Source: Fibrobacter sp. (lineage in GTDB: Bacteria; Fibrobacterota; Fibrobacteria; Fibrobacterales; Fibrobacteraceae). Taken from it: a stretch of 64,000 nt of DNA. Where the stretch lies: assembly GCA_024398875.1 (NCBI GenBank), contig JAKSIJ010000013.1, positions 1-64,000 of the forward strand, given 5' to 3'. The notes under the pieces were generated by a model, which searched no databases, had not been told where the DNA came from, and saw only the letters and a list, made by a program, of their open reading frames with translations. The position numbers and the translations under genes were made by a program. This document shows, in pieces, positions 4,869 through 43,659 of this stretch; positions within the stretch are counted from its first letter, which is position 1, and the number at the start of each line of letters is the position of its first letter.

Positions 4869-5207
4869 AATTTATAATTTAAAATTCAAAATTCAAAATT
4901 ATATCAAAGAAAAACTTACGAATTTTGTGGCGGAAACATCGCACATTTGCCTTTAACCAATTTATAATTCACAATTCAAAATTATGCCTCTCACGAAATA
5001 CCTCGCCTGAAACATCTCGTATTTCGTAATTAGTGCTTCGCACTCATTTTGACTTCGGCTCGGCAGTGTGCCTGCAAGCAGTCCCGTTGCCCTCGCCTCG
5101 ACAAAATTCAAAATTTAAAATTCAAAATTATATCCACAAAAGCTTTTTTTGGCAGAGACATTTACTCCTGAAACAATTATTAATTGTGCATTGTGAATTT
5201 TGAATTG
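4869..5207. repeat. AT-rich intergenic stretch with imperfect direct repeats
   Basis: About 340 bases without a gene. Four clusters are built from ATTCAAAATTATA-like words, at about 4869-4903, 4958-4985, 5102-5134 and 5174-5207, separated by unrelated sequence. The last cluster includes ATTAATTGTGCATTGTGAAT. This is simple-sequence-like DNA. No open frame or RNA gene is recognised. Confidence 0.6.
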
Positions 5208-5208
5208 T

Positions 5209-16122: not shown

Positions 16123-16152
16123 GAGTAGATTGTTCTCTTTTCAAAAAACAAA

Positions 16153-16235
16153 AAGTCAAATGTTTGTTTAAGAAAAGTCAATTCTTTTTTGTGTGAAAGT
16201 CAATTGTTTGTTAAGGGGTAAGTCAATTGTTTGTC
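16153..16235 (+). promoter_or_regulatory. Four-copy 22-bp-periodic repeat array upstream of fic
   Basis: Four copies of AAGTCAATTGTTTGTT-like sequence begin at 16153, 16175, 16197 and 16220, that is 22, 22 and 23 bases apart, about two helical turns. The second copy is the most diverged. Shorter CAATTGTT copies follow at 16267, 16364 and 16399, the last immediately before the fic start codon. The core CAATTG is palindromic. This is most easily read as a multi-site operator or iteron-like array controlling the Fic gene. Confidence 0.65.
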
Positions 16236-16407
16236 AAAAAATATTTGATTATTCCTTTGTGAAAAAGCAATTGTTTTTACAATATTTTACGTTTTTTACT
16301 TTGAGAAAATGCGCGAATTTGATGAAATTTTGACAATTTTACAATTTTAAGCCTTGCTTTATAGCAATTGTTTGCTATTTTCTTGAAAAAGAAATGGAGC
16401 AATTGTT

Positions 16408-17553
16408 ATGGATGATGTTGTAGAAGAACTGATGATGCCTGTGGTGAGTTTTGGCTCTCCCGTAACGACACTGCTTTTCAAGCTTGAACGTCTCCGGGGT
16501 ATCGCCCTGTCGGGCACTACCCCAAGGGTATGGTTCTTCCAGCTCCAGCGTAGTTTCCAGTTGCTGGAGGCTATAGGTTCTTCAAGGATCGAAGGAAACA
16601 ACACCACTGTTCTAGATTACGTTTCGAAAGAAAACTTGCCTCCTGAAATCAGGGAACGGGAAGGATTCGCTGAAATTGGCAACCTGGAAAAGGCCCTGCA
16701 GTTTATTGAAGAAAGCACCGCACCTATAGACGAACATTTTATTTGTGAGCTGCAGAAAATGGCCGTAGAAGGGCTTACGCAGGAAGGTGACCCAAATGCA
16801 GGTTGCTATCGCGGCATTCCCATTTCCATTTCTGGTTCTAGCCATGAGCCTCCCGCAGCAGACGATGTCCCCGCATTTATGCGGGAACTTGTAAAGTTCA
16901 TCAATAAGGAATGCGAACAGCAATACGACCTTTTGAAAGTTTCTGTTGTGCATCACCAGTTCGTATGGATCCACCCCTTCCGCAACGGAAACGGCAGAAC
17001 GGCAAGACTATTGACCTATGCCATGATTGTACGCCTTTTTGATGTTCGGCAGTCCAGGCTGTTTAATCCTACGGCGGTATTCTGCTCTGATCGCAACAAG
17101 TACTATGAGATGCTGAAGGTTGCAGACGCCAAGAACAATGAGGCTATGGTTCAGTGGTGTTTGTTCGTGTTAAAAGGACTTTTGGACGAATTGCAAAAGA
17201 CCGAGAAACTGACAGATGTCAATTATGTGAGAAAATCCATTTTGGAACCCATGTTGCAAGATTCCTTAGGCAAGGGTGTAATGGGGAAGGACATCTACTC
17301 GGCCTTGTTGGTGGCGCTAGAAAAACCCGTATTCCAAGCCTCAGACTTGGCTGGTGTTTGGCCTAATGCTTTCACCAGGTCTAGGTATATTCGTAGTATG
17401 CTGGATGCTGGTTTCATTGCGCCTGTAGCCGAAGGCACTAGGAAGTATTGCTTGAAATTCACGGGTGGTCCACTGATGGTAAGCCTTATCAACATGTTGT
17501 ACCAACAGGGGTTCTTACCGGAATCCATGCTGAAAAACGAAAAAAATAGATAA
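16408..17553 (+). CDS. Fic-domain protein (probable AMP-transferase) with C-terminal winged helix
   Basis: A 381-residue class II-type Fic protein. The active-site loop HPFRNGNGRTAR begins at His189; the usual Asp/Glu is Asn here. An N-terminal autoinhibitory motif SSRIEGN with Glu62 is present. Residues about 275-370 look like a winged-helix DNA-binding region (MGKDIYSALLVALEKPVFQASDL, interrupted here for brevity only in naming). Such proteins usually transfer AMP to target proteins and many repress their own gene. The repeat array upstream fits autoregulation. No separate antitoxin gene is adjacent. Confidence 0.85.
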   Translation: MDDVVEELMMPVVSFGSPVTTLLFKLERLRGIALSGTTPRVWFFQLQRSFQLLEAIGSSRIEGNNTTVLDYVSKENLPPEIREREGFAEIGNLEKALQFIEESTAPIDEHFICELQKMAVEGLTQEGDPNAGCYRGIPISISGSSHEPPAADDVPAFMRELVKFINKECEQQYDLLKVSVVHHQFVWIHPFRNGNGRTARLLTYAMIVRLFDVRQSRLFNPTAVFCSDRNKYYEMLKVADAKNNEAMVQWCLFVLKGLLDELQKTEKLTDVNYVRKSILEPMLQDSLGKGVMGKDIYSALLVALEKPVFQASDLAGVWPNAFTRSRYIRSMLDAGFIAPVAEGTRKYCLKFTGGPLMVSLINMLYQQGFLPESMLKNEKNR

Positions 17554-17739: not shown

Positions 17740-18156
17740 TCATTTGAACGAGATTTCAAGTTTTTTCCCGATGTAGTTGGCAATTCGGTGTAGCATTTTG
17801 ACGGAAAGGTTTGCGGAAGGATCTTCAAGCCTTTGGTATGCCTGGGGCTGCATGCCCATTTCCTTTGCTGCGATACTTTGTGGCTTTGCTCCTCTGTATG
17901 CCGCGAGCGTTAACGCCACCGCCAATTCCGGGTCCACGTCGATAGAATACAGGCCTTTTGAATGGTTTGGTTTAGTTTTGCTTGCAGGAAGGGGCTCTCC
18001 GTCAAAAACGTTCCTTAAAGTCAATTCAAGAGCGTCTTTGGCCATCAGTAAGGCTTCTTCCAGGGAGTCTCCTTCTGAAAAACATCCTTCAATGTCTGGA
18101 AATTCCACGGAAAATCCGCCGTCTTTTTCTTTGGTAAGTTTAGCCGTATAATGCAT
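17740..18156 (-). CDS. hicB: HicB-type antitoxin with C-terminal helix-turn-helix, no HicA partner
   Basis: A 138-residue protein. Residues 1-55 are a HicB RNase-H-like fold (HYTAKLTKEKDGGFSVEFPD, GCFSEGDSLEEALLMAKDAL). Residues about 80-135 are a Cro/CI-like helix-turn-helix (GAKPQSIAAKEMGMQPQAYQ). HicB proteins neutralise the mRNA-cleaving HicA toxin and repress the operon, but no hicA is found on either side. The start codon lies 3 bases beyond repeat copy A, whose complementary strand supplies an AGGG-type ribosome site. It is the last intact gene of the repeat-separated series. Confidence 0.85.
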   Translation of the reverse strand: MHYTAKLTKEKDGGFSVEFPDIEGCFSEGDSLEEALLMAKDALELTLRNVFDGEPLPASKTKPNHSKGLYSIDVDPELAVALTLAAYRGAKPQSIAAKEMGMQPQAYQRLEDPSANLSVKMLHRIANYIGKKLEISFK

Positions 18157-20555: not shown

Positions 20556-20867
20556 TCAGAAAAATTCGATGAAATCTTTACTTTTTGGCCAAATTTTGGG
20601 CGGCTTAGTGCTTCCAAAATGGCTGTAGATTTCGTTGAATTCCCTGTCTGCCATGCCGAACAGGCAGATTGTTGACCGGGGGCAAATCATCGTGGCGATT
20701 CTCGCCTTGTGCATGTTCCCGTTTTTGATGGTGGTGCAATACCTGGCGTACATGCCTCGCTGGATTTTTGAAAAGCCGTCTTTTTCGAATTCCGCTACGA
20801 AGTCAGACATGTTTTTACGACCGCTCCTGCAATGTCTTGGAAAGTCGAATACTGCTACTATCCACAT
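20556..20867 (-). CDS. cas2: CRISPR-associated protein Cas2
   Basis: A 103-residue protein. It starts MWIVAVFDFPRHC, with the conserved Asp8 after the first strand, then DGFSKIQRGMYARYC and TICLFGMADREFNEIY, which form the ferredoxin-like fold of Cas2. Cas2 dimers hold two Cas1 dimers together during spacer integration. The start overlaps the 3' end of cas1 by 10 bases; a longer frame beginning at 20945 would lie inside cas1 and is rejected. The sequence type fits type II systems. Confidence 0.85.
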   Translation of the reverse strand: MWIVAVFDFPRHCRSGRKNMSDFVAEFEKDGFSKIQRGMYARYCTTIKNGNMHKARIATMICPRSTICLFGMADREFNEIYSHFGSTKPPKIWPKSKDFIEFF

Positions 20868-21751
20868 ATAACTCTCGGATAGGTGTGCGCCTTGGTTTCG
20901 CCTGCGGAAAATTTTGCCACGGATGCGGCTGTGTAGGTGAGGCATGTTCCCAACTGGACCATTTGTTCTCCGAATGGAATTTCCGTGTAAAAAATTTCCA
21001 GGAAGGCGTGCTTGACATCTTTCGTCAGCTTGCGCTGTTTTTGCCCCATAAGTCGGATTACGACCTGGTCAACAAATGGTCGGTACGGTTCCATGATGTC
21101 GTCGGCCAGCGGAAAAGCGTCGTAGTAGTTGCGGTGGAATATTCCCAAGGCGGGGAGGAGTCCGCTTCCCATGAGGGCGCGTGCGGTTGCTGCCCGCAGT
21201 ATCGTGTAGCCATAGTTCAGAAAATTGTTTGGGTATTCTCCGAAACGGTCGCGGACGAATCCTTTACCCATGAGCTCTTTCCAGTAGATTTGTGCGGCGT
21301 GTCCTTCGCAGTTTGTCGTATCGCCGCTGCGGACGTTGTTTACATAGCGGTTTAGTTTGTTTGAGTTCTTGCCAAGTGATTCCAGCAGTTGCGACTGATT
21401 TCGAATTTTCGTTTCCACGACATTTTTCCACATCTGTTTTTTTGTGGGCTCGCTCGCCTCTAGTTGCAGGCGGAAGTATTTTTCTTGCTTGCAATTTGCG
21501 TCAAGGTTCATGAGCATGGAGGCCGGCATGTGCTTTTGGTCGCAAAAGACCACGGCCACATTGTTTTCGGCGAGTTCTCCCAGCAGCGGGATTGTCATGC
21601 TCACGGAATGGTTGTCCACGAGAATCATGGCGATGTCCTCGATGGCGCGGAAATGTTCATGCTCAGGATTGTCTTTGTAGGAGATGTTCATTTGCCCGTT
21701 TTTCAACGACAGTTGAACGGCGTTTTCGAAAATAAGGGTTTGCTTTGGCAT
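20858..21751 (-). CDS. cas1: CRISPR integrase Cas1 (type II-like)
   Basis: A 297-residue Cas1. The metal-binding catalytic residues are intact: Glu149 (NCEGHAAQIYW), His206 (GIFHRNYYDAF) and Glu221 (ADDIMEPYRPF). These closely match positions known from type II Cas1. NYGYTILRA is also typical. It has an AAGGAG site five bases before the ATG. No cas9, csn2 or cas4 lies upstream; the next gene is an acyl-CoA ligase. It is thus an intact adaptation pair without effector in the window. Confidence 0.95.
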   Translation of the reverse strand: MPKQTLIFENAVQLSLKNGQMNISYKDNPEHEHFRAIEDIAMILVDNHSVSMTIPLLGELAENNVAVVFCDQKHMPASMLMNLDANCKQEKYFRLQLEASEPTKKQMWKNVVETKIRNQSQLLESLGKNSNKLNRYVNNVRSGDTTNCEGHAAQIYWKELMGKGFVRDRFGEYPNNFLNYGYTILRAATARALMGSGLLPALGIFHRNYYDAFPLADDIMEPYRPFVDQVVIRLMGQKQRKLTKDVKHAFLEIFYTEIPFGEQMVQLGTCLTYTAASVAKFSAGETKAHTYPRVICG

Positions 21752-43570: not shown

Positions 43571-43606
43571 ACAGGGAAAGATAAAAAATTACAGTCCAGC
43601 ATCGCA

Positions 43607-43634
43607 ATTCATAATTCATAATTCATAATTCATA
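43607..43634. repeat. ATTCATA microsatellite
   Basis: Four perfect tandem 7-base units (ATTCATA) just before the metal permease gene. A length-variable promoter spacer is possible. Confidence 0.7.
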
Positions 43635-43659
43635 ATTATAAATTTCTAATTTATATCCC

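Follow-up and report, generated by a model that had tools for sequence, protein, structure and literature searches.

The window, by which we mean the whole stretch of 64,000 nucleotides of Fibrobacter sp. DNA that was analyzed, contains a gene for a Fic protein that is preceded by an array of short direct repeats and by three further sites (Table 1). Four AAGTCAATTGTTTGT-type copies begin where the original prediction had placed them, at spacings of 22, 22, and 23 bp. Two measures of repetition agree with this: the TRF row for 16151 to 16234 (period 22, 3.8 copies) scores 80, the top of the 31 rows for the window, and the self-match of 16131 to 16260 over lags of 5 to 59 is at its maximum at 23 and 22. 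None of 383 other AT-rich 130-bp stretches of the window beats the array's self-match at lags 20 to 25. The exact core [GT]CAATTGTT is found five times in the 64-kb window (16200, 16223, 16267, 16364, and 16399), always on the plus strand and within the stretch that runs from the array to the Fic start codon, with none on the minus strand and none elsewhere in the window; the array copies at 16153 and 16175 carry one core mismatch each. Further half-copies had been proposed up to the start codon. Repeats do extend that far, but they are three full cores (GCAATTGTT at 16267, 16364, and 16399), and they lie partly out of the 22-bp register, with distances of 44 bp (16223 to 16267), 97 bp (16267 to 16364), and 35 bp (16364 to 16399). 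Allowing two or fewer mismatches, AAGTCAATTGTTTGT occurs at 10 places in the 2.78-Mb genome, 4 of them in this array. A motif built from the seven window sites gives six matches and three pairs at 21 to 23 bp within 300 bp upstream of the gene; dinucleotide shuffles reached six matches in 2 of 500 cases and any pair in 0 of 500, in a test that is partly circular since the same sites were used for training.

Table 1. Coordinates of the Fic gene, its motifs, and the repeats in front of it
Feature	Position	Strand	Basis or remark
Array copy 1, AAGTCAAATGTTTGTTTA	16153..16170	+	sequence
Array copy 2, AAGTCAATTCTTTTTTGT	16175..16192	+	sequence
Array copy 3, AAGTCAATTGTTTGTTAA	16197..16214	+	sequence
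Array copy 4, AAGTCAATTGTTTGTCAA	16220..16237	+	sequence
Further site AAGCAATTGTTTT	16265..16277	+	44 bp past copy 4
Promoter-proximal site TAGCAATTGTTTG	16362..16374	+	within dyad TAGCAATTGTTTGCTA
Site GAGCAATTGTTAT	16397..16409	+	overlaps Fic start codon
Fic gene, 381 aa, CccR-like class II Fic with C-terminal winged helix	16408..17553	+	
Inhibitory-helix motif of class II Fic, codons 58-64, SSRIEGN region (SRIEGN, Glu62)	16579..16599	+	
Fic motif HPFRNGNGR, codons 189-197	16972..16998	+	
Winged helix, codons 271-349	17218..17454	+	model pLDDT, fold match to 7xux
Putative recognition helix, codons 321-334, includes TRSRYIRSML	17368-17409	+	

The surroundings of the gene include a HicB-like antitoxin gene (17740-18156, minus strand) and a type II-like cas1 gene (20858-21751, minus strand). 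Elsewhere in the window, 7-bp AT-rich intergenic tandem repeats (AATTTAA, CAAAATT, and AATTCAT) lie at 4869-5208 and 43606-43641 and are unlike the 22-bp array. A consensus promoter scan before the window gene returned nothing useful and no convincing sigma-70 promoter.

The window protein has a Pfam Fic match at 7.1e-19, and its closest solved protein is 7xux_A, that is, CccR, at 2.1e-86 over residues 13 to 372, followed by a runner-up at 2.8e-12. AlphaFold2, given five sequences, modeled the window protein with a mean pLDDT of 74.5, and the closest PDB fold to this model is 7xux (TM 0.84). Over residues 271 to 350, where the ten-residue pLDDT means are 89 to 94, the model shows a winged-helix arrangement of helices with two strands, which bears out the C-terminal domain that had been read from the sequence. 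The inhibitory motif SRIEGN, with Glu62, is invariant in the four aligned full-length members and positionally equivalent to S59ARIEG of CccR. Other Fic proteins usually have Asp or Glu where HPFRNGNGR has Asn, and this Asn had been singled out as unusual. That suggestion did not hold up: the Asn is invariant across the aligned full-length relatives and is likewise present in CccR (HPFGNGNGR), described in the excerpted text of PMC9755527 as an active AMPylator. Since the residue is common to CccR and to all aligned full-length members, it is a trait of the subfamily and not a sign of odd chemistry or of lost or changed activity. Judging by CccR alone, the enzymatic role of the window protein would be AMPylation of some target.

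Three characterized proteins offer points of comparison. CccR (YPK_0951, PDB 7XUX) of Yersinia pseudotuberculosis is presented in the excerpted text of PMC9755527 as a class II Fic protein that represses its own promoter via a C-terminal HTH, protects a pair of inverted AGATAATCAT boxes separated by 26 bp, AMPylates FtsZ in Escherichia coli, and is a T6SS effector. The window protein resembles it in full-length homology, fold, class II inhibitory motif, HPFxNGNGR motif, C-terminal HTH, and single-gene organization. Unlike the inverted AGATAATCAT boxes of CccR, the sites of the window and its Fibrobacter relatives are direct GCAAWT/GTCAAT repeats at 22 to 23 bp, several per promoter, and an AGAT pair occurs in neither the window nor the Fibrobacter relatives. 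A further difference is that three Fibrobacter relatives are catalytically dead by motif loss, and whereas CccR is a T6SS effector, no VipB sheath gene was found across the eight genomes in which the family occurs. CbFic2 (CBU_0822, PDB 8CIL) of Coxiella burnetii also joins a Fic domain to a C-terminal HTH; DNA of at least 20 bp induces its dimerization, a switch in activity has been proposed, and its specific binding sequence is named as a matter for further studies (PMC10628234, discussion, as excerpted). However, its similarity to the window protein is low (5.6e-6), and an operator array is not described for it in the excerpted text of PMC10628234. SoFic (SO_4266, PDB 3EQX) of Shewanella oneidensis has the same order of Fic core and winged helix, and the window protein matches the PADLOC SoFic model at 3.2e-44 but falls far from the SoFic equivalogs of NCBIfam NF046030 (50.1 against a cutoff of 550 bits). 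According to the excerpted text of PMC10628234, DNA binding by SoFic is not demonstrated, and the discussion of PMC9755527, as excerpted, holds HTH-containing Fic proteins to be widespread.

Of the 111 genomes of the taxonomic family that were searched with profiles, 8 carry a member (E up to 1e-6); for the phylum the figure is 8 of 167 (E up to 1e-40). The eight carriers are G000 (the window), G090, G003, G094, G074, G015, G012, and G007, with identities to the window protein of 99% in G090, 86% in G003, 81% in G094, and 47% in G074, which belongs to another genus; the record titled 'Fibrobacter sp. isolate Horse_feces19' contains a 99%-identical gene with a near-identical upstream region. 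The proteins of G015, G012, and G007 have intact frames of 283 to 292 residues and retain the winged helix; HPFxxGNGR, the inhibitory motif, the SSHEPP stretch, and the CSDRxKYYE stretch are all missing from them. Their recognition-helix region is 56 to 67% identical to that of the window protein and their Fic core 30 to 39%. These three Fic-derived proteins, which lack the catalytic motif and have the winged helix and 22-bp triplets, lie at L042:1805-2656, L043:2033-2881, and L044:1920-2798. The gene next to the dead Fic gene in G015 and G012 is one that we take, by eye, to be secA. In G094 (L074 3220-4200) the protein is N-terminally shortened, so that the inhibitory region is gone while the Fic motif and winged helix are kept, and in the G003 orthologue (L041:1583-2692) an in-frame loss has removed GLTQEGD from between MAV and PNAG. 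In G009 (L045 2805-3052), five sites stand before a deletion scar, where all that is left of the Fic protein is its final residues. A match to PF05943 (VipB) was found in none of the eight carrier genomes, three of which are under 90% complete, and because of this absence type VI delivery of the Fibrobacter Fic proteins, as for CccR, is unlikely.

When the region upstream of orthologues was compared, full-length Fibrobacter members that keep the gene were found to keep the repeats, and loss was not seen. In G003, which has a different upstream neighbor, two copies of AAAAGTCAATTGTT follow each other at a 23-bp interval, and GCAATTGTTTGC lies roughly as far from the ATG as the promoter-proximal site TAGCAATTGTTTG does in the window. 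In G074, fifteen sites were scored in 460 bp with a motif that includes G074's own sites, at spacings of 22, 22, 22, 53, 22, 22, 22, 35, 57, 22, 22, 52, 21, and 22 bp. The distant Fibrobacter relatives have triplets in a single orientation, with steps of 22 to 23 bp and about 52 bp between triplets: sites lie at -152, -130, and -107 and at -55, -33, and -11 in G015; at -171, -149, and -127 and at -74, -52, and -30 in G007; and at -148 and -126 and at -52, -30, and -8 in G012. G015 and G007 each have a site between TTGACT and TATATT, themselves 17 bp apart, and the truncated frame of G094 is preceded by three sites at intervals of 23 and 22 bp.

We compared these counts with those of shuffled sequences. 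Motifs trained on other clades yielded 9, 6, 5, and 6 sites in G074, G015, G012, and G007, with 5, 4, 3, and 4 pairs at 21 to 23 bp, respectively, and 0 of 400 shuffles matched either the site or the pair counts. The other-clade motif gave three sites and no pair in G000 and two sites and no pair in G003, site counts reached by 32 and 36 of 400 shuffles, respectively; these low values arise because the distal copies are GTCAAT and not GCAAT. With the motif from the window only, no shuffle of 500 reached the sites or pairs of G003 and G074. This motif was weak in G015, G007, and G094 (sites reached by 25, 39, and 24 of 500 shuffles) and found no sites in G012, P. multocida, or P. damselae.

CccR-like genes were also found outside Fibrobacter, in the phage-like contigs L123, L124, L125, L131, L132, L134, and L135 and on a P. 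multocida plasmid that carries a phage tail gene. In E. coli TUM9757 (L128 1-8831) the CccR-like Fic gene comes last after capsid, protease, portal, and terminase genes in a prophage-like element, and the phage-gene settings of the E. coli, L124, and L125 members suggest that they are phage or satellite cargo. Annotated phage and plasmid records held no further close Fibrobacter-type member, and scans of IMG/VR in which the window, L125, or L123 protein was the single query gave nothing new. Direct repeats at 21 to 23 bp precede several of these genes as well: TGCAAAT at -107, -86, -21, and +1 in L123; AGAT at -36 and -14 in L124; and repeats at -38 and -15 in L125 and at -138 and -115 and at -5 and +17 in P. 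multocida. In E. coli, AGATAAT at -36 and AGGTAAT at -14 were noted by eye, with one mismatch. No site pair was found in P. damselae, where the gene is split over two frames.

The half-site in these regions goes with the sequence of the putative recognition helix. The alignments give this helix as SRxIR for L123 as well as for the Fibrobacter proteins, and as TYQI for P. multocida, L124, and L125. Counting pairs at 21 to 23 bp on both strands from -220 to +25, we found GCAA pairs only among the SR rows (7 of 10, namely G074, G015, G012, G007, L123, L134, and L135, against 0 of 6 TY rows) and AGAT pairs only among the TY rows (3 of 6, against 0 of 10 SR rows). In G000, G003, and G094, which lack a strict GCAA pair, the pairs are other core variants or lie farther upstream. 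Among the first four TY-type regions, three have an AGAT pair at 21 to 23 bp, which 0 of 2,000 joint shuffles reach; the motif for this test was taken from the CccR paper and the spacing from the window. When spacings from 8 bp up were scanned in the four regions, at least two pairs occurred only in windows of about 20 to 25 bp. Two SR members obtained after the rule was noted fit it: L134 (SRIIR) has TGCAAAT at 23 and 22 bp, and L135 (SRRLR, 32% identical) has GCGCAAGTTT-type words twice per strand, 22 bp apart. Obtained alongside them were L131 and L132, where AGAT occurs singly and never as a pair; these two add nothing to the rule and bring the TY total to three of six. From sequence comparison, then, SRxIR appears to pair with GCAA and TYQI with AGAT. 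In the tree, L123 and L134 stand beside the TY clade with support of 99/99, so the SR/GCAA state is common to both sides of the split; the switch to TY/AGAT may be a single evolutionary change, in which case the match of helix and half-site rests on one event. The position of L135, on a very long branch, is unsure.

We also searched for the spaced pattern across genomes. A genome-wide regulon of the CAATTGTT doublet was rejected: across the 111 family genomes the doublet and its reversed pattern occur at 8 places each. Six of the eight doublet places precede a family gene (G000, G003, G090, and three in G074), and the other two (G027 and G127) have no Fic gene within the 3-kb loci. A triple TGCAAWW pattern occurs at 15 places against 2 for the reversed control, with 9 of the 15 before family genes (two being overlapping minus-strand matches) and 1 before the G009 Fic remnant; the window has no such match because its array is GTCAAT. 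The five triple places (21- to 23-bp steps) without a known family member are G062:C11:8528, G062:C36:30422, G030:C1:263916, G020:C11:49459, and G001:C17:376, of which those in G030 and G020 have nearly the same sequence.

We consider it likely that these repeats serve as the Fic gene's own operator and that the gene represses itself, with the winged helix of its product reading the operator. The comparison thus favors the original prediction of a single-gene, self-regulated system. We favor the Fic protein as the binder because CccR represses itself, the sites follow the gene across neighborhoods, and the half-site follows the helix. The winged helix would contact half-sites of the GCAAWT/GTCAAT type, and direct repeats two helix turns apart would place neighboring protomers on nearly the same DNA face, so that cooperative binding along one face is predicted from the spacing only. 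As the sites nearest the gene cover the promoter region and the start codon, their occupancy would repress transcription, and binding, cooperativity, and repression would together form a single-gene negative feedback. Several observations weigh against such a self-operator. The published boxes of CccR are inverted and 26 bp apart while those here are direct repeats, and the last three sites of the window are spaced 44, 97, and 35 bp. The other-clade motif gives no pair in G000 or G003, L131 and L132 have none either, E. coli has one only if a mismatch is allowed, and the CAATTGTT doublet is no more frequent than its reversed control. On the same side are the promoter scan, which found no convincing sigma-70 promoter ahead of the window gene, and the tree, by which helix and half-site may have changed together just once.

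A more far-reaching possibility, which we regard as doubtful, is that the array doubles as operator and allosteric scaffold, with proteins bound every 22 bp held inactive or deAMPylating and the DNA serving as the antitoxin. CbFic2 dimerizes and changes activity on DNA of at least 20 bp (PMC10628234, as excerpted), and the spacing here is 21 to 23 bp; relatives without the catalytic motif are also without the inhibitory region. However, the authors of the CccR study held regulation and toxicity to be independent (PMC9755527, as excerpted), and the dead relatives retain the array though they have no enzyme to silence. Because the 22-bp repeat fits a CbFic2-type dimer on DNA of at least 20 bp, we tentatively extend this idea to a ruler-like array that would silence a toxic Fic protein while repressing its gene and that, after catalytic loss in three Fibrobacter lineages, would serve a pure Fic-derived repressor with the same operator geometry. 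Control of the Fic gene from outside, by another regulator or a nucleoid protein on the array, is quite unlikely. CAATTG-rich AT DNA might suit several binders, but the sites accompany the Fic gene despite different neighbors in relatives, and the half-site varies with the Fic protein's own recognition helix. Such sites are also absent upstream of 38 other Fic genes, taken from the same searches with all rows bearing the family signature removed: seven motifs found a 21- to 23-bp pair in none of them and at most two sites, G003's count of two being equaled by 1 of the 38. That the array is a neutral AT-rich intergenic tandem repeat without function is very improbable, since, although short AT-rich tandem repeats such as the 7-bp units also occur elsewhere in the window, shuffles fail to reproduce the array, and cores, spacing, and orientation are conserved among relatives where the intervening sequence is not.

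For the self-operator that we favor, autoregulation by CccR is the part already known, and the direct-repeat array and the predicted dead-enzyme Fic repressors appear to be new: in search listings of open-licence PMC papers, neither a Fic protein with direct-repeat arrays nor a Fic-derived dead-enzyme repressor is described. Among the HTH-Fic proteins compared, an operator is mapped only for CccR. The locus and its relatives supply a predicted natural ligand, with half-site, orientation, two-turn spacing, and a covarying recognition helix. With it, how DNA binding controls a Fic enzyme can be tested directly on a single protein and a single fragment. Relatives that retain the operator although catalytically dead would represent a step from enzyme to repressor.
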